Source: Aestuariispira ectoiniformans
Lineage (GTDB): Bacteria; Pseudomonadota; Alphaproteobacteria; UBA8366; Aestuariispiraceae
NCBI RefSeq assembly: GCF_025136295.1
Contig: NZ_CP062788.1
Location: forward strand, 3,923,588-3,987,587
Direction of reading: 5' to 3'
Length of the DNA stretch: 64,000 bases
The position numbers and the translations under genes are program-made. Shown here piece after piece: positions 55,633 to 63,366 of the stretch. Below the pieces are notes generated by a model, which was not told where the DNA came from, ran no database searches, and was given only the letters and a program-made list of their open reading frames with translations. Positions within the stretch are counted from its first letter, which is position 1; each line of letters opens with the position of its first letter.

Positions 55633-56349
55633 TCAATGCCCCGGCCCCATGCCGAAGCTGAGCGTGGAGACCAACCCCAGCTCGTCCACTTCCGGGTCGT
55701 CATCAACGGCCCGGTCGAGCGACGTCGAAATGACATTCAAGCCGTCGTTACGGATGGTGAAGCTCACCTTGCCATCCGCATCACTGACCAGACTTTCATT
55801 ATCGCCGTCATTGATGAAGTCGGCGGCAACCACGGCCCCTTTCACCGGCTTGCCGTCGCTTAGAACCTGAACCGTCAACCGATCCCCCATCGACAGTTTC
55901 ACCGGATCCTGTAACGGGACAATTTCCAGCGGCAGCCCTTTCGGTTCGATATTGCGCGAGCCGCTCTTCAGCAGGGCCACCATATATTTCAGGTAACGTC
56001 CGCTCTGAACCGCCCCCTTGACCTCCGGTCTTGGCTTATTGTGCCATTTGCCGCGTGCATCCTTGGTCCAATAGCCGTTGTCAAAGGTAACGACCACACC
56101 GGCAGCCTGCGGCGGTTCCTCCAGACGAATGTGATCGTTCATAGGATCGATTTTTACGGCCAGACCTCCGCCAGCCTTGTCAAAGGCGGTCGCCGACGTC
56201 ACGCGGGCCGGGTTATAGGCATCGTCACCACCGCCATGTCCATAGACCACGGCAAGGTCGCCATAGCGCCGTTCAATCCAGGCTCCATGCCCCCAGGCGG
56301 TGCCGGACACAAGGGCCGTCACGAAGGCCAGTGCGAGCATTTTCTTCAT
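55633..56349 (-). CDS. Periplasmic DUF4198-type protein
   Basis: The 238-aa exported protein (signal peptide MKKMLALAFVTALVSGTAWG, ATG at 56349) begins with mature HGAWIERRYG and continues to a C-terminal Ig-like segment with LTVQVLSDGKPVKGAVVAAD and DADGKVSFTI. It belongs to the DUF4198 group, some of which sit with nickel or cobalt uptake genes; the N-terminal His may bind metal. No transporter is adjacent. It converges with the lyase gene. Confidence 0.85.
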   Translation of the reverse strand: MKKMLALAFVTALVSGTAWGHGAWIERRYGDLAVVYGHGGGDDAYNPARVTSATAFDKAGGGLAVKIDPMNDHIRLEEPPQAAGVVVTFDNGYWTKDARGKWHNKPRPEVKGAVQSGRYLKYMVALLKSGSRNIEPKGLPLEIVPLQDPVKLSMGDRLTVQVLSDGKPVKGAVVAADFINDGDNESLVSDADGKVSFTIRNDGLNVISTSLDRAVDDDPEVDELGLVSTLSFGMGPGH

Positions 56350-56543
56350 TGCCAATCTCCACGTATGTTTTGTTATAACATCACGCTTTAATCATAATTG
56401 AAAATGCCTCGCAACATCATTTTCTATTTTCAGGAGAATTTTGGCAAGAAAGAAGCGCCGGGGGCGCCGACAGATGGGGGTTGAGGCCATTGTCGCATCC
56501 ACGTCCCGGGCAACCCAGGGGACATTCCCGACGCTTCTTGATC

Positions 56544-56564
56544 GAACCCCGAAGGGTTCTTTTT
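56544..56564 (+). terminator. Rho-independent terminator-like hairpin in the gene-poor region
   Basis: GAACCC-CGAA-GGGTTC is followed by TTTTT on the plus strand. No plus-strand protein gene ends nearby, so a short non-coding transcript from about 56400 is one reading. A 61-codon TTG-started ORF (56441-56626) with an AGGAG upstream reads through it and is not called. Confidence 0.55.
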
Positions 56565-57093
56565 CCTGGAAACGGTGTCCCGGATACCACGCCGGTGATC
56601 TCGGTCACCCTGGCAAAGCACCTTGACCTGGCGCGGCACCTGCCGGTGGTTCGCCACCGGCGGAAAGCCCCTAAACAGCATGTCGGACAAGGGAGATTGC
56701 CGCGTCACACTATCCGGCGTTTGGACTTCGGGCTTACGTCCTGCCCCAACGCAGCCGGTCATTCGCACAAAGGATTGTGACTGCCCTCAATCCCCTGTTG
56801 ACCGGAAGGCACCGGTTTACCCGGTTTGCTTTCCCACGGAACAGACACCGAAGGCTAAGCTGTCTGTTCCGCCGCACAGGAAATCCCACACAGAACGTGT
56901 TTCCGGGATTTCCTCCAATCCTTTGATTTTCAAAGCTGAAGCTACGCCCCAAGCCCCTCTAAAACCAAGTCCAGGATTGGCGTTTCCATATAAAAATTGT
57001 CCGCTGAATCAATTTCAGAGTCCATAGAAAAGTAACGATTAAGTAAAAAAAGTTGTGCAAAAATTATATTCTAACCCACATCCCACACACAAC

Positions 57094-57114
57094 TTATCCA
57101 CACACTTTTCCACA
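57094..57114 (+). promoter_or_regulatory. DnaA-box-like pair
   Basis: TTATCCACA (57094-57102, perfect box) and TTTTCCACA (57106-57114, one mismatch) lie close together in AT-rich DNA, with GANTC at 57006, 57018 and 57123. This may control the acyltransferase operon or be a DnaA-binding cluster; I do not call it an origin. Confidence 0.4.
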
Positions 57115-57366
57115 AATAATAAGAATCAACACCTTAATGACTAAGTATTATTTCTTGAAATTTTACAGTAGCAACGGATTAGGCTCTCGATCACTATTCT
57201 GTCGCCCCGCATCCTTACAGCTTCGCTGAGAAGTCCCACCCGCCTTGCCGCCCCCACGGCCCCCTACGCCAACGTGGCATTAAAGTTGACTATTACCGTA
57301 TATCAGTTATTCAGTGGCGGCCTCAGGCGCAGAAAACATCGTTTTTTTTTAGAGTTGAAGTAGATC

Positions 57367-58875
57367 ATGCTATTCAATTCATTAGAGTTCTTATACTTTT
57401 TCCTTCCTGCGTCATTCTTGGGTTTCCAAATCCTACGACGCTACCGGCAAGGGGCTTTTGCGCTTTTCTTCCTCGGATTTTGTTCTCTATTCTTTTATGG
57501 CTGGTGGTCACCGGCCTATCTCATACTGTTACTGATCTCAATTATCGCAAACTTTTCACTGGGGCGCGCCATATCGCGGTCCTACAGCAAGGTAATACTG
57601 ACTGTTGCGGTCATCGGAAATCTTACATTTATCGGCTGGTTCAAATATGCAAATTTCTTTGTTGGCAATTTGAATTGGGTAACAAATACAGATATTTCAC
57701 TACCTGATATTATCCTGCCCTTAGGCATCTCATTTTTCACTTTTCAGCAAATCGCATATCTCGTTGACTGCTATAAACATAAAGTGGAGGAACATAGTTT
57801 TCTCCACTACCTGGTCTTCGTGTCGTTCTTTCCACAATTAATCGCGGGCCCTATCGTCCATCACGGCGAGATGATTCCCCAACTGGTGAACCGCATTCGC
57901 GAGAAGCAGAATTGGACCCTTGTTGCATTGGGGTTAACGCTGTTCGGTATCGGCCTATTCAAAAAAGTCATTCTGGCGGATAATCTCGCCGTCTATGTCA
58001 GCCCCATATTCGAAGCCGCCGACGCGGGCCACGCAGCCTCTCTGCTGGAGGCCTGGGCAGGTGCGTTGGGCTATACATTACAGCTCTATTTTGATTTCTC
58101 TGGTTACTCTGACATGGCGATCGGCTTGGGCTATCTGTTTGGTGTTGAATTGCCCGTGAATTTTTTTTCACCCTACAAGGCGGGTAGTATCATCGAATTT
58201 TGGCGGCGCTGGCACATGACACTGTCTCAATTCCTGCGCGATTACCTCTACATCCCTCTCGGTGGAAACCGCAAAGGGAAGGCTCGGCGCCATCTGAATC
58301 TCATGATCACCATGCTTTTAGGAGGTCTATGGCACGGGGCCGGGTGGAATTTTGTGATCTGGGGCGGGCTGCACGGCGGCTATCTGATCATCAACCACCT
58401 CTGGAGCGCCATTTTTCCGACAGCATCTGCGAATAGAGCATATACACTCGCCTGCCATACGGTGACCCTATTAGCAGTCATCACCGCCTGGGTGGTGTTC
58501 CGCGCCGAAACACTCGCAGGCGCTCTCAATATCCTTCAAGGTATGGCAGGGATGTCAGGAACAATACTGCCTCAGAGCCTCGCCGGTACGGCGTTTCTGT
58601 TCAATGATGCAATCATTGCGGAAAGCAAGGCAATCGGAGCGCTATCATCAATGTCTGCCTTCACAACAATAGGCATCGGCTTTCTAGTTGTGTTCCTTTT
58701 TCCAAACTGCGCAGAGATCCGCGCCTGGATTCTCGGCCAGGGTGAGAAACATGCCTTCTCGTGGCAGCTAAACAAACGTTGGCTAGGTGTGGCAACAATT
58801 ACACTATGTGCTAGCTTATACGCCGTTACGTACTATGCGAACCGAGTATCCGAGTTCATCTATTTCCAGTTCTGA
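57367..58875 (+). CDS. MBOAT-family O-acyltransferase (AlgI-like)
   Basis: The 502-aa membrane enzyme has about 11 helices. It starts LFNSLEFLYFFLPASFLGF and contains FFPQLIAGPIVHHGEMIPQ, FDFSGYSDMAIGLGYLFGVE and LLGGLWHGAGWNFVIWGGLHG (outline) with the catalytic His of the MBOAT site. AlgI-type enzymes pass acetyl groups across the inner membrane for exopolysaccharide or peptidoglycan acetylation. The partner gene starts 10 bp after the stop. The pair is less GC-rich than most of the window, suggesting transfer. Confidence 0.93.
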   Translation: MLFNSLEFLYFFLPASFLGFQILRRYRQGAFALFFLGFCSLFFYGWWSPAYLILLLISIIANFSLGRAISRSYSKVILTVAVIGNLTFIGWFKYANFFVGNLNWVTNTDISLPDIILPLGISFFTFQQIAYLVDCYKHKVEEHSFLHYLVFVSFFPQLIAGPIVHHGEMIPQLVNRIREKQNWTLVALGLTLFGIGLFKKVILADNLAVYVSPIFEAADAGHAASLLEAWAGALGYTLQLYFDFSGYSDMAIGLGYLFGVELPVNFFSPYKAGSIIEFWRRWHMTLSQFLRDYLYIPLGGNRKGKARRHLNLMITMLLGGLWHGAGWNFVIWGGLHGGYLIINHLWSAIFPTASANRAYTLACHTVTLLAVITAWVVFRAETLAGALNILQGMAGMSGTILPQSLAGTAFLFNDAIIAESKAIGALSSMSAFTTIGIGFLVVFLFPNCAEIRAWILGQGEKHAFSWQLNKRWLGVATITLCASLYAVTYYANRVSEFIYFQF

Positions 58876-58885
58876 GAGCGCGTTC

Positions 58886-59989
58886 ATGAGTGCCACCCGA
58901 TTTATCGTCTGCTTGCTCTCTATCACCTTCACAATCCTTGCCCTGCCGGCAAGTTTGGTTGTTGTCGGTGACCCTTTTCAGGTTTTGCACCGTAACTGGT
59001 TTGGTCAAAATGGTTATCTAAATTCGGATCGCTTCCAGAATGCAGGCCTAATCAAGCGGTTGATTGCTGATCAGCCGGAGCGCCACGATTCAATAGTTCT
59101 TGGCACGTCCATGAGTCAAAATTTCGATATCCAGCAATTATCGGAAGAGATGAACTGGAAAGGGCCTGTCAAGCTAACCATCGCTGGTGGACGCGCGCGT
59201 GAGATCGCTGTCATTGCAACCGATGCCTTGCGGTCGGGCTCCATCAAACATGTTTTGTGGGAAATTTATTCGGGTTACGAGTTGAAAGACCCGTTCGCGC
59301 TGCACCCAGAAGCACCACTGCCACTTTATATGTATAGCGAGAATAGCATTGATCTCTGGCGCTATCTATTCAATCAGGACATCGTAGATAAAGCGGTTAA
59401 AACAATTTTTCGGCGGAATGACCGGAAGTTCAGAGACATAAAAAACTTGTACCGGTGGGAGCAACCGGAAGCCTTCCAGGCCTTTTCTTCACCCGCCAAC
59501 ATTGAGCAGCTAAACCGAAAGATGGCTGCAGCGCCACCATTATCCCCAAGAAGCGCCGGAAACGACTATTATCTGAACATTGATAAGAACCTGATTCCGA
59601 TCATTAAAGCGCATCAGGATGTGGAGTTTAATCTATATTTCCCACCCACTTCCTATTACGGGCTGACGTTGACGACACCAGCGAAATTTTGGACAAGAAT
59701 GAACACACGCAAATATCTGTTGGAGCGCGTATCTATATTCCCGAATGTCCATGTATTTGCCTTTGATCTCTACGATGATTTCGGCGCAAAAGCAGCTAAT
59801 TATAAAGATCTTAGCCACTATTCGCCGGCCGTAAGCAAGGCGATTGTCAGGTATATTGCACAAGGTAAATTCGAAATTAGAGCGAATGAATGGGATGGCT
59901 ATGTTGCGACGTTGCTCTTGAAACTGCAGCAATTCCGACAGAATACGCTGCAGGGCCAGAAGCAAACAGTAAGCAGGTCGCTCAACTAA
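58886..59989 (+). CDS. SGNH-like acyltransferase partner (AlgJ/AlgX-like)
   Basis: The 367-aa protein (ATG at 58886) has an N-terminal membrane anchor (about 6-24) and a periplasmic domain. The motif IVLGTSMSQNFD is the Gly-x-Ser nucleophile block of this family and DLSHYSP near the C terminus supplies the Asp-x-x-His pair. It probably receives acetyl from the MBOAT protein and moves it to a polysaccharide. No glycosyltransferase genes are in the window, so the acceptor is unknown. An upstream open frame overlaps the MBOAT end and is not used. Confidence 0.82.
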   Translation: MSATRFIVCLLSITFTILALPASLVVVGDPFQVLHRNWFGQNGYLNSDRFQNAGLIKRLIADQPERHDSIVLGTSMSQNFDIQQLSEEMNWKGPVKLTIAGGRAREIAVIATDALRSGSIKHVLWEIYSGYELKDPFALHPEAPLPLYMYSENSIDLWRYLFNQDIVDKAVKTIFRRNDRKFRDIKNLYRWEQPEAFQAFSSPANIEQLNRKMAAAPPLSPRSAGNDYYLNIDKNLIPIIKAHQDVEFNLYFPPTSYYGLTLTTPAKFWTRMNTRKYLLERVSIFPNVHVFAFDLYDDFGAKAANYKDLSHYSPAVSKAIVRYIAQGKFEIRANEWDGYVATLLLKLQQFRQNTLQGQKQTVSRSLN

Positions 59990-60170
59990 TTTGATCAGGC
60001 CTGCGAGATGCCTCGCACCTCACCTGGCACAACCATCGTGAGAGCCGACAGCATAACAAAAACATTACTTTGTTATGAATTTATTTATTTTTTTTGTTCT
60101 TAATGATCTCTGACCAATAGGCAACTGCATTAATTGCCTGTGCAACAAGGGTTGGGAGGAGGTCACAGTC

Positions 60171-62120
60171 ATGTCGCTCAACATCGGAAGCCGCATTTTA
60201 CTGGCGGCTGCGTTGATTGTCGTTTTGACGTTTATCGCATTCATTTTGTATTTCGACTTCAACCAGAGAAGCGAAATCCGGTCCGCGCTGCGCTCCAGCG
60301 TCGAGGAAACCGGCGCGCTGGCCACCACCAGCATTGCCAACTGGGTCAACGGGCGACAACTGCTGATCGAAAACACCGGTCAGAATATCGCCACGGCTGA
60401 CGATACGAATGCGGACACCATCCGTACATTCGTCGACCGGCCGGTTTTGCAGGACAGCTTCATGTTCACCTATTACGGCAGTGCCACCGGCGCAATGACC
60501 ATGAACCCGCCGGACGAACTGCCCTCGGACTACGACCCGCGCACACGCCCCTGGTACAAAGATGCCGCCAGTGCCCGGTCCAGCACATTGACCGAACCCT
60601 ATGAAGATGCCTCCACCGGCAAACTCATCGTAACAATGGCCACGCCGGTTCAGGACGGCAGTACGCTCAAAGGCGTTGTCGGCGGCGACATCGACATCAC
60701 CACCCTGGGAGATATCGTGCGCAACGTCGACCTCGGAGGTATCGGGTATGCCTTCCTGGTAAACAGCGAAGGCACGATCCTGATTCATCCTGACAAGGAT
60801 TTCACCCTGACCCCGATGTCCAAGGCCTTCCCGGAGAATACCCCTTCCGTCAGCCAGGGCTTGAGCGCGATTGACGACAGCAGTGGTGATCAGATTTTCG
60901 TCTTCTTCCCTGTCAAAGGCCTGCCCACGGTCAAATGGTCACTCGGTTTCGCCATCGACCGCGACGCCGCCTTCGCCGCCCTGTCGAATTTCCGGTTAAC
61001 CGCCATCATCACAGCAGTGATCGCGGTCTTCGCGATCATGATCCTGCTCGGGATTATGGTGCGGACAATGGTCTCCAAACCGGTCGTCGCCATGACCAGC
61101 GCCATGACGGAACTGGCCGGCGGCAACAAGAATGTCGATGTGCCAGGTACCGACAAAAAGGATGAAATCGGCTCCATGGCCTCCGCCGTGCTGGTCTTCA
61201 AGGAGAATGCAATCGAGATGGACCGCCTGGCAGAAGAAAACGAAAAGGCTGCCCAGCGCATGGAAGAAGAGCGCAAGCGGGCCCTGAATGACATGGCCGA
61301 CTCCTTTGAAAAGACGGTCCTGTCCATCGTGGAGACAGTCGCCAAGGCCGCCGAAAACACCCAGAAGGTGGCGGGCGAACTGACCGACAGTGCGGCGGAA
61401 TCGAATTCCCGTGCAATCGCCGTTTCCAATGCCGCCGCCGAAACCACGCAAAGCGTACAGACCGTCGCCGCGGCAACAGAGGAACTGTCTGCGGCGATCA
61501 AGGAAATCGGCGTGCAGGTTTCCCAGTCGATCCAGGTCGCCAGCGAGGCAGTGCAGGGTATCGACCGAACCGGCAGCTCGGTTTCCAAACTGGCCGATGC
61601 AGCCCAGCATATCGGCGAGGTTGTCACCCTGATCAACGAAATCGCCGATCAGACCAACCTGCTGGCGCTGAACGCCACGATCGAGGCCGCCCGTGCGGGC
61701 GATGCAGGCAAGGGCTTTGCCGTTGTCGCGAGCGAAGTGAAATCGCTCGCCTCCCAGACCGGTAAGGCGACCGAGGAAATCGGCACCCAGGTCGAAGGCA
61801 TTCAGTCCTCCAGCACACAGTCAGTCGATGAAACCGGCCAGATCAAGACCACCATCGACCGGATCAGCGAATTCACCAACGCCATCGCGGCAGCCGTTGA
61901 ACAACAAGGCGTGGCGACACGGGAAATCGCCGACAGCGTCCAAAAGGCCGCGACCGGCACCCAGGAGGTTTCCAGCAACGTGGCAGCCGTAACGGAGGCC
62001 TCCTCGATGGTCAGCGAGGAAGCCAAGCGCCTGTTGGACTCTTCCAGCGAAATGCAGGCACAGGCGGAAAACCTGCGCAAGGAAGTGAGGGATTTCCTCT
62101 CCACGGTTCGCAAAAGCTGA
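60171..62120 (+). CDS. Methyl-accepting chemotaxis protein with dCache amino-acid-type sensor
   Basis: The 649-aa receptor has membrane helices at about 7-29 and 275-300 flanking a dCache domain. Residues Y121, R126, W128, Y129 ([12 protein letters not shown]), Y144 and D173 match the amino-acid-binding dCache_1AA motif. A HAMP domain (about 300-360) and the signalling domain follow, with [22 protein letters not shown] in outline. It most likely senses amino acids. No che genes adjoin it. A bidirectional terminator lies 30 bp downstream. Confidence 0.92.
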
Positions 62121-62985: not shown

Positions 62986-63366
62986 ATGAGCTCTGAAAAC
63001 AGGCCTCTGTCCCCGCATTTGCAAATTTATCGCTGGCAGTGGACCATGGCGTATTCGATTCTGCACCGTGCAACGGGTGTTGCACTGGCAGTCGGCGCAT
63101 TGTTCCTGGCTTGCTGGTTGATCGCGCTTGCGGGAGGCGCAGACGACTTCAACGCCGTCCAGGCATTCTCCACTTCCATCATCGGCCGCGTGCTGTTGCT
63201 GGGCTGGACCTGGTCGCTTTTCTATCACCTTCTCAATGGCATTCGGCATCTGGTCTGGGACAGCGGTCGCTGGCTCGACCTGAAATGCGCTGAGTTGTCC
63301 GGGCATGCAGCCGTGGCGGGATCCGTCATTCTGACGCTGATCGCCTGGGCCATCGCCTATATGTAA
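62986..63366 (+). CDS. sdhC: Succinate dehydrogenase cytochrome b556 subunit
   Basis: The 126-aa product from the ATG at 62986 (a GTG lies two codons earlier) is the large membrane anchor of complex II. Motifs are RPLSPHLQIYRWQWTMAYS, SILHRATGVAL and the heme-ligand region FYHLLNGIRHLVWD. Three helices are seen. It binds heme and quinone with SdhD. AAGGGG is 8 nt upstream. First gene of the sdh operon. Confidence 0.95.
   Translation: MSSENRPLSPHLQIYRWQWTMAYSILHRATGVALAVGALFLACWLIALAGGADDFNAVQAFSTSIIGRVLLLGWTWSLFYHLLNGIRHLVWDSGRWLDLKCAELSGHAAVAGSVILTLIAWAIAYM

Follow-up and report, generated by a model that had tools for sequence, protein, structure and literature searches.

A predicted large structured noncoding RNA of Alphaproteobacteria, encoded behind a DnaA-box array and often divergent from sdhC

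A hairpin-dense segment near the right end of a stretch of the Aestuariispira ectoiniformans genome (64,000 nucleotides of contig NZ_CP062788.1, here called the window) is, as judged by sequence comparison, very probably the gene of one large structured noncoding RNA on the minus strand. Comparison with related genomes reveals its structure, its strand, its conservation, the array of DnaA boxes before it and its sdhC neighbourhood. The explanation that best fits the whole is a stand-alone structured RNA whose transcription is tied to DnaA and which probably acts in trans (probability roughly 0.6). The RNA measures about 545 nt in the window and roughly 0.4-1 kb in relatives. Its features are given below in the direction of the RNA, followed by sdhC.

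57106..57114, minus strand: DnaA box TGTGGAAAA (RNA strand), in an array conserved in relatives
57094..57102, minus strand: DnaA box TGTGGATAA (RNA strand), with exact copies on the 5' side of the core at 11 of the 13 family loci
57054..57062, minus strand: third DnaA-like box TTTTGCACA (RNA strand), its place matching that of TTATNCACA in relatives
57020..57035, minus strand: block TTACTTTTCTATGGAC, identical in G010 (another genus), carrying the proposed -35
57019..57024, minus strand: proposed -35 TGGACT, placed from the array layout in relatives
56995..57000, minus strand: proposed -10 ACAATT, weak and likewise predicted
56442..56988, minus strand: predicted noncoding RNA, from folding, covariance and the closing helix
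56981..56988, minus strand: 5' arm of the closing helix, UGGAAACG
56878..56914, minus strand: hairpin with a 10-bp base
56838..56870, minus strand: hairpin
56642..56663, minus strand: hairpin
56589..56636, minus strand: core hairpin with its covarying outer helix
56603..56622, minus strand: invariant core GGUGCUUUGCCAGGGUGACC, a 20-mer common to 13 of the 14 family genomes
56567..56574, minus strand: 3' arm of the closing helix, CGUUUCCA
56544..56559, minus strand: small hairpin P0, GAACCCUUCGGGGUUC, counterpart of the GGAGCC hairpins of relatives
56527..56539, minus strand: 5' arm of the terminator stem P1
56503..56523, minus strand: P2 of the three-way junction
56468..56495, minus strand: P3 of the three-way junction
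56450..56463, minus strand: 3' arm of the terminator stem P1
56440..56449, minus strand: T-rich tail, then TCTTGCC; weak in the window's genome, T8 in G003
62986..63363, plus strand: sdhC, in divergent orientation at a distance of 6.3 kb from the RNA

The segment had been singled out by a sequence-only reading, which listed five stems between 56430 and 56930 and saw no convincing protein there. All five stems are present (56544-56559, around 56590-56605, 56642-56663, 56838-56870 and 56878-56914; the last two and the third were listed at 56838, 56879 and 56642). One of them, around 56590-56605 and listed at 56594, and the conserved fold of the core (56603-56622) compete with each other. Five ORFs (63-134 aa) lie here, none with a Pfam match (E up to 1), in keeping with the absence of a protein. 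Two of the interpretations offered were one or more structured RNAs and a decayed repeat cluster. The former gained support in the form of a single RNA on the minus strand. The latter did not, as direct repeats in the segment are short two-copy matches and the segment matches its own genome once when 59 genomes are searched. Behind the 56544 stem lies a T-run that had been read as a terminator. It belongs to the plus strand and, seen from the RNA strand, becomes an A-run preceding the conserved small hairpin; the actual predicted terminator is on the minus strand, ending near 56442. Paired changes among relatives, the check which that reading had proposed, were found in the outer helix of the core, in P1 and in the closing helix.

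Folding energies of positions 56440-56935 were well below those of dinucleotide shuffles (z of -5.28 for the minus and -4.38 for the plus strand). For the predicted RNA itself the values were -4.1 (minus) and -3.5 (plus). The lowest z from 50 further stretches of 547 nt, taken elsewhere in the window, was -3.92, near enough to -4.1 that folding energy alone does not make the segment unique. The strand was assigned by two other observations. Consensus energy was lower for the minus strand in all three cuts of an alignment of six genomes from one genus, and the outer helix of the core, read on the minus strand, contains 12 G-U cells versus 2 A-C. Together these place the RNA on the minus strand, and a plus-strand reading was rejected. 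A coding reading was also rejected: the core gives VLCQGDR in one frame, yet without any synonymous-site variation. As stop-free frames reach 242 codons in GC-rich members, open frames are uninformative on coding.

Sequence conservation is concentrated in the core. The search of 59 genomes with the segment returned matches in nine, including the window's own, and most spanned only about 35 nt. This stretch contains the 20-mer GGUGCUUUGCCAGGGUGACC (56622 to 56603, minus strand), which is identical and single-copy in 13 of the 14 family genomes; named carriers include Aestuariispira insulae, Hwanghaeella grinnelliae, Marivibrio halodurans and Pacificispira spongiicola. In the 14th, G005, an assembly gap (N run) just upstream of sdhC leaves the core impossible to judge. 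The N run (L083) falls exactly at the expected site of the RNA; folded GC-rich DNA may assemble poorly. Exact copies of the 20-mer in genome contigs amounted to 13 stretches, 11 of them from the family. Matches in L069 and L072 came without the enclosing stem and were taken as chance, as were six three-mismatch matches to the core pattern outside the family.

The helix that encloses the core varies in sequence and keeps its pairing. Six of its eight pairs changed on both sides, and compensated cells numbered 18 versus 6.1 in shuffled alignments (0 of 500 shuffles). The signal was lost when the partner segment was slid, and a MAFFT alignment, which is not fitted to structure, gave nearly the same result (17 cells). 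Weaker measures were less decisive: the count of pairs changed on both sides was equalled in 19 of 500 shuffles, and the pair types in 15 of 500. In other families of the order, the loop keeps GCCAGG on stems that vary (GGUCU..AGACC, GGUUU..AAACC, GACAGAC..GUCUGUC). When the core hairpin and P1 were taken together over three families, 12 of 17 pairs had changed on both sides, a result reached in none of 500 shuffles.

A second structured element, found across the class, forms the 3' domain. It consists of a GGAGCC-type hairpin (P0) followed by a terminator with a long stem (P1, of the GAGGCGUCRGG type), and P1 encloses two more hairpins to give a three-way junction. Across the class, 97.6% of P1 cells are paired and eight of 11 pairs show changes in both partners, a level reached in none of 500 shuffles; the variety of P1 pair types was equalled in 69 of 500 shuffles. 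The domain has the GC-rich stem and T-run of an intrinsic terminator, with a T-run that is weak in the window and good in G003. Within the family, 11 of 13 loci have a terminator-like stem and T-rich tail on the 3' side of the core; the two g3 loci (L012 and L013) contain no convincing terminator stem in that position. Separately, an 18-nt sequence within the terminator, GGTGGTCCCACCAACTCC, is identical in five f2 genomes (G021, G033, G024, G019 and G014). The f2 loci concerned include L097, L099, L100 and L107.

At the other end, the predicted promoter is preceded by DnaA boxes. These typically comprise CTGTGGATAA, followed after about 12 nt by TGTGGAWAA and after about 40 nt by TTATNCACA. 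Sites were counted over 35 genomes, four of them with a second site (39 sites in total). At least one strict box was present at 31 of the 39 and none at eight, while 17 had at least two within 90 bp, where dinucleotide shuffles predict 0.01. The window has two strict boxes, the clustering predicted from sequence for a DnaA-regulated promoter. They adjoin the hairpin segment and sit outside 56430-56930. From the sequence of the array and its constant place, we consider it likely that transcription of the RNA is under DnaA control. A 5' motif, YACGYR, occurs 112-136 nt after a DnaA box at 23 of 59 loci versus 21 of 921 background windows; this is a looser motif, picked after a stricter one had been found at 9 of 48 loci (0.33 expected). 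In several loci the -35 was read as TGGACA or CTTGCA, chosen by eye. One genome, G345, has a second R3 match (see below) on contig 106 (L256), away from sdhC and with its own DnaA-box array, which may be a paralogue of the RNA.

The 5' end of the RNA was modelled by setting the transcription start 35 nt after the start of the -35 and pairing the first nucleotides with the segment just before P0. The start so predicted, near 56988, agrees with this closing helix. Over 19 loci, one per species, arms from the same species paired with a mean of -18.6 kcal/mol versus -13.5 (sd 0.77) for swapped arms, and none of 20,000 permutations was as low. Of the family members, the test covers those outside g2, g3, g5 and g7, groups whose 3' domains could not be aligned. 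For single species, seven of the 19 ranked 10th or lower of 37, and G014 shows nothing. Minimum free energy folds of 24 RNAs placed the helix as expected in 13, elsewhere in six and nowhere in five; this set is without the G002 sites, in which no terminator was matched by pattern. Species-matched pairing of the arms thus supports both the predicted 5' end and an RNA body closed upon itself.

Covariance models, built stepwise, were used to follow the RNA through the class. The first, R1, spanned 48 nt and was too narrow, with matches in 10 of the 385 class genomes. Four of these belong to the family; the six matches outside it were judged not credible, and the sole one examined closely (G317) lies in a gene. 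With E up to 0.05 allowed, R2, a model of the 3' domain from 12 sequences, matched 25 of 43 genomes in the order. Fifteen of these fell below 1e-20, 12 of which are in the model. In the class sample it matched 25 of 385 genomes at E up to 0.01. R3 describes the small hairpin and terminator from 24 sequences. At E up to 0.001 it matched 37 of 385 genomes, which represent 19 families, and 20 of the 37 are outside the model. This count is a lower bound, as the known members G004 and G009 were missed; its weakest matches, G107 and G117, look unrelated and may be chance. R3 also matches the opposite strand weakly at some sites, as expected of a long stem. An RNA present in about 19 families of the class sample and two more of the window's order, and absent from Rfam 15 at cut-off, represents an annotation gap in a well-studied class. 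Among the loci collected, L071 (CP051228.1) is from a record titled Mesoflavibacter sp. and carries an alphaproteobacterial RNA locus. Mesoflavibacter is a name from the Bacteroidota, and the record is probably mislabelled.

The usual neighbour of the RNA is the succinate dehydrogenase gene sdhC. The arrangement upstream of and divergent from sdhC recurs in other families of the order. Of the 15 strong order-level R2 matches, 13 have sdhC divergent on the same contig, and in the remaining two the contig with sdhC breaks off nearby. In 12 strong relatives at order level that carry both on one contig, no more than about 2 kb separates sdhC from the RNA. Over the 39 sites, sdhC lies 5' of the RNA at 21, at distances of 776-4239 nt. 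Of the 20 genomes outside the R3 model, ten have sdhC in this place (G049, G058, G121, G163, G169, G256, G271, G345, G393 and G420). At the remaining 18 sites sdhC was not found within 2.2-5.1 kb, and several of these have the array. The RNA is therefore linked to sdhC yet also occurs apart from it. The 6.3-kb distance in the window reflects three intervening genes (57367-62120), encoding an MBOAT acyltransferase, an unassigned 400-aa protein and a Cache/HAMP chemotaxis receptor. In one family, f71 (L245, L246 and L248), the 3' domain of the RNA has moved off sdhC to a place beside one conserved peptidase-like gene and one gene resembling alcohol dehydrogenase, as named by eye from their translations. 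Pairing of the core with the sdhC leader was considered and rejected, since the complement of the core has no match of at least 7 nt in the 700 nt around the sdhC start of the window's genome. Having succinate dehydrogenase as usual neighbour suggests where a partner of the RNA might be sought.

Our data suggest a model in which the promoter sits directly behind the DnaA-box array. DnaA, whose activity follows replication state, would turn the RNA up or down. The transcript would be closed by its own ends, would show the hairpin with the GCCAGG loop, and would end in the small hairpin and three-way-junction terminator. The conserved loop may then let it work in trans, either by base-pairing to a target or by holding a protein. 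Transcription, the direction of control by DnaA and trans action are what we infer in this model. Action in trans, which we somewhat favour over control of sdhC in cis, is the weakest clause, drawn from conservation of the loop, from the sites lacking sdhC and from the absence of any place for pairing in the leader of sdhC. Against the explanation as a whole it counts that both the T-run and the -10 are weak in the genome of the window and that eight of 39 sites have no strict box. The conserved link between RNA and sdhC would also fit a cis role, and so counts against the trans reading. A bolder version, which we put forward as less likely than not, is that the RNA is a class-wide output of DnaA, its GCCAGG loop coupling replication state to central metabolism or the cell cycle. 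If true, the RNA would be as deep as many housekeeping RNAs and would be made when DnaA fires or is spent. We know of no earlier RNA arm of a replication initiator's regulon. A DnaA-box array in front of an RNA offers a direct and testable link from the replication initiator to that RNA.

Alternatively, the locus could be a cis element of sdhCDAB, in which a divergent transcript and the boxes tune the sdh promoter through transcription, supercoiling or shared DnaA sites and the RNA itself matters little. Such a role would account for the position of sdhC, which is 5' and divergent at 21 of the 21 sites where it was found and in 13 of the 15 strong order-level matches. It sits poorly with the 18 of 39 sites without sdhC in 2.2-5.1 kb, with the three genes and 6.3 kb between the two in G000, and with class-wide covarying helices, needless for a mere transcription event; we regard it as unlikely. 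A locus that titrates or resets DnaA, as datA or DARS do, with the RNA as by-product or structural helper, would explain the density of the array (many loci have at least three DnaA-like boxes, and 17 of 39 sites have two or more strict ones in 90 bp) and, in G000 and G009, a position some 1.0 Mb away from the origin inferred by skew. The near-constant spacing of 112-136 nt between the array and the 5' motif of the RNA (23 of 59 loci) is instead operator-like, and we think this reading rather improbable.

The boxes also adjoin AT-rich DNA, as they would if the locus were a chromosomal origin of replication next to an RNA. In two complete genomes, GC skew has the same sign on both sides of the element (negative in G000, positive in G009) and changes sign elsewhere, near 0.65 Mb and 1.5 Mb respectively, making an origin hardly credible. 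GC-rich DNA might also raise the suspicion of stems that resemble terminators and cluster by chance, of decayed repeats or of a protein gene, the more so as the weak R3 matches G107 and G117 seem unrelated. The lack of a Pfam match, a core invariant at all codon positions, the covariation and the single copy in the genome speak against these readings, and we hold them to be very improbable. A structured RNA whose transcription is tied to DnaA remains our preferred explanation.

The RNA does not correspond to a family in Rfam 15, which returned no match at the gathering cut-off in the whole window and none up to E 5 in 55900-57400. In the loci of relatives, 16 and 19 loci gave only sub-threshold matches and 15 more gave none at cut-off. 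One such match, to RsmW in L093 (27.3 of 52 bits, E 1.2), overlaps the 3' end of the RNA. 6S RNA, RNase P RNA and alpha tmRNA are closed by 5'-3' helices, and in this they resemble the RNA described here. They differ in that the family genomes have their own copies elsewhere: each was located away from the site in 14 of 14, 6S at cut-off in nine. In the window's genome, alpha tmRNA (RF01849) matches at 3587804-3588164, RNase P RNA class A (RF00010) at 3593383-3593770 and 6S RNA (RF00013) at 1680486-1680645. The sequence-only reading had correctly dismissed RNase P and tmRNA.

datA and DARS of E. coli are noncoding clusters of DnaA boxes away from the origin. The locus shares with them its noncoding nature and a box cluster off the origin. 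It differs in that the boxes precede a predicted promoter and a conserved structured RNA; to our knowledge, neither datA nor DARS is an RNA gene. Searches of the open-access literature turned up no paper naming such an RNA, and passages of PMC4414408, PMC5988900 and PMC2704228 make no mention of sdhC. In being long, highly structured and stand-alone, with sequence poorly conserved except in small islands, the RNA is reminiscent of OLE, GOLLD and ROOL, large bacterial RNAs whose function is unclear (compare the opening of the abstract of PMC12286853). It is set apart from them by its predicted DnaA-box promoter, its usual sdhC neighbour and the lack of an Rfam 15 match at cut-off.

PMC4414408 describes EcpR1, an sRNA of the Rhizobiales of about 101 nt, encoded near divK-pleD. 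It acts on the mRNA of dnaA and uses a conserved loop to repress both dnaA and gcrA. Identity with EcpR1 was rejected on the lack of an Rfam match and on gene neighbours, which are sdhC and others rather than divK-pleD. The complement of the core near the dnaA start of G000 extends to 7 nt only, which is chance level. The two RNAs are alike in being alphaproteobacterial, in presenting a conserved loop on a variable stem and in having a link to DnaA. The direction of the link is where they differ: EcpR1 acts on the dnaA mRNA, whereas here DnaA boxes precede the RNA.
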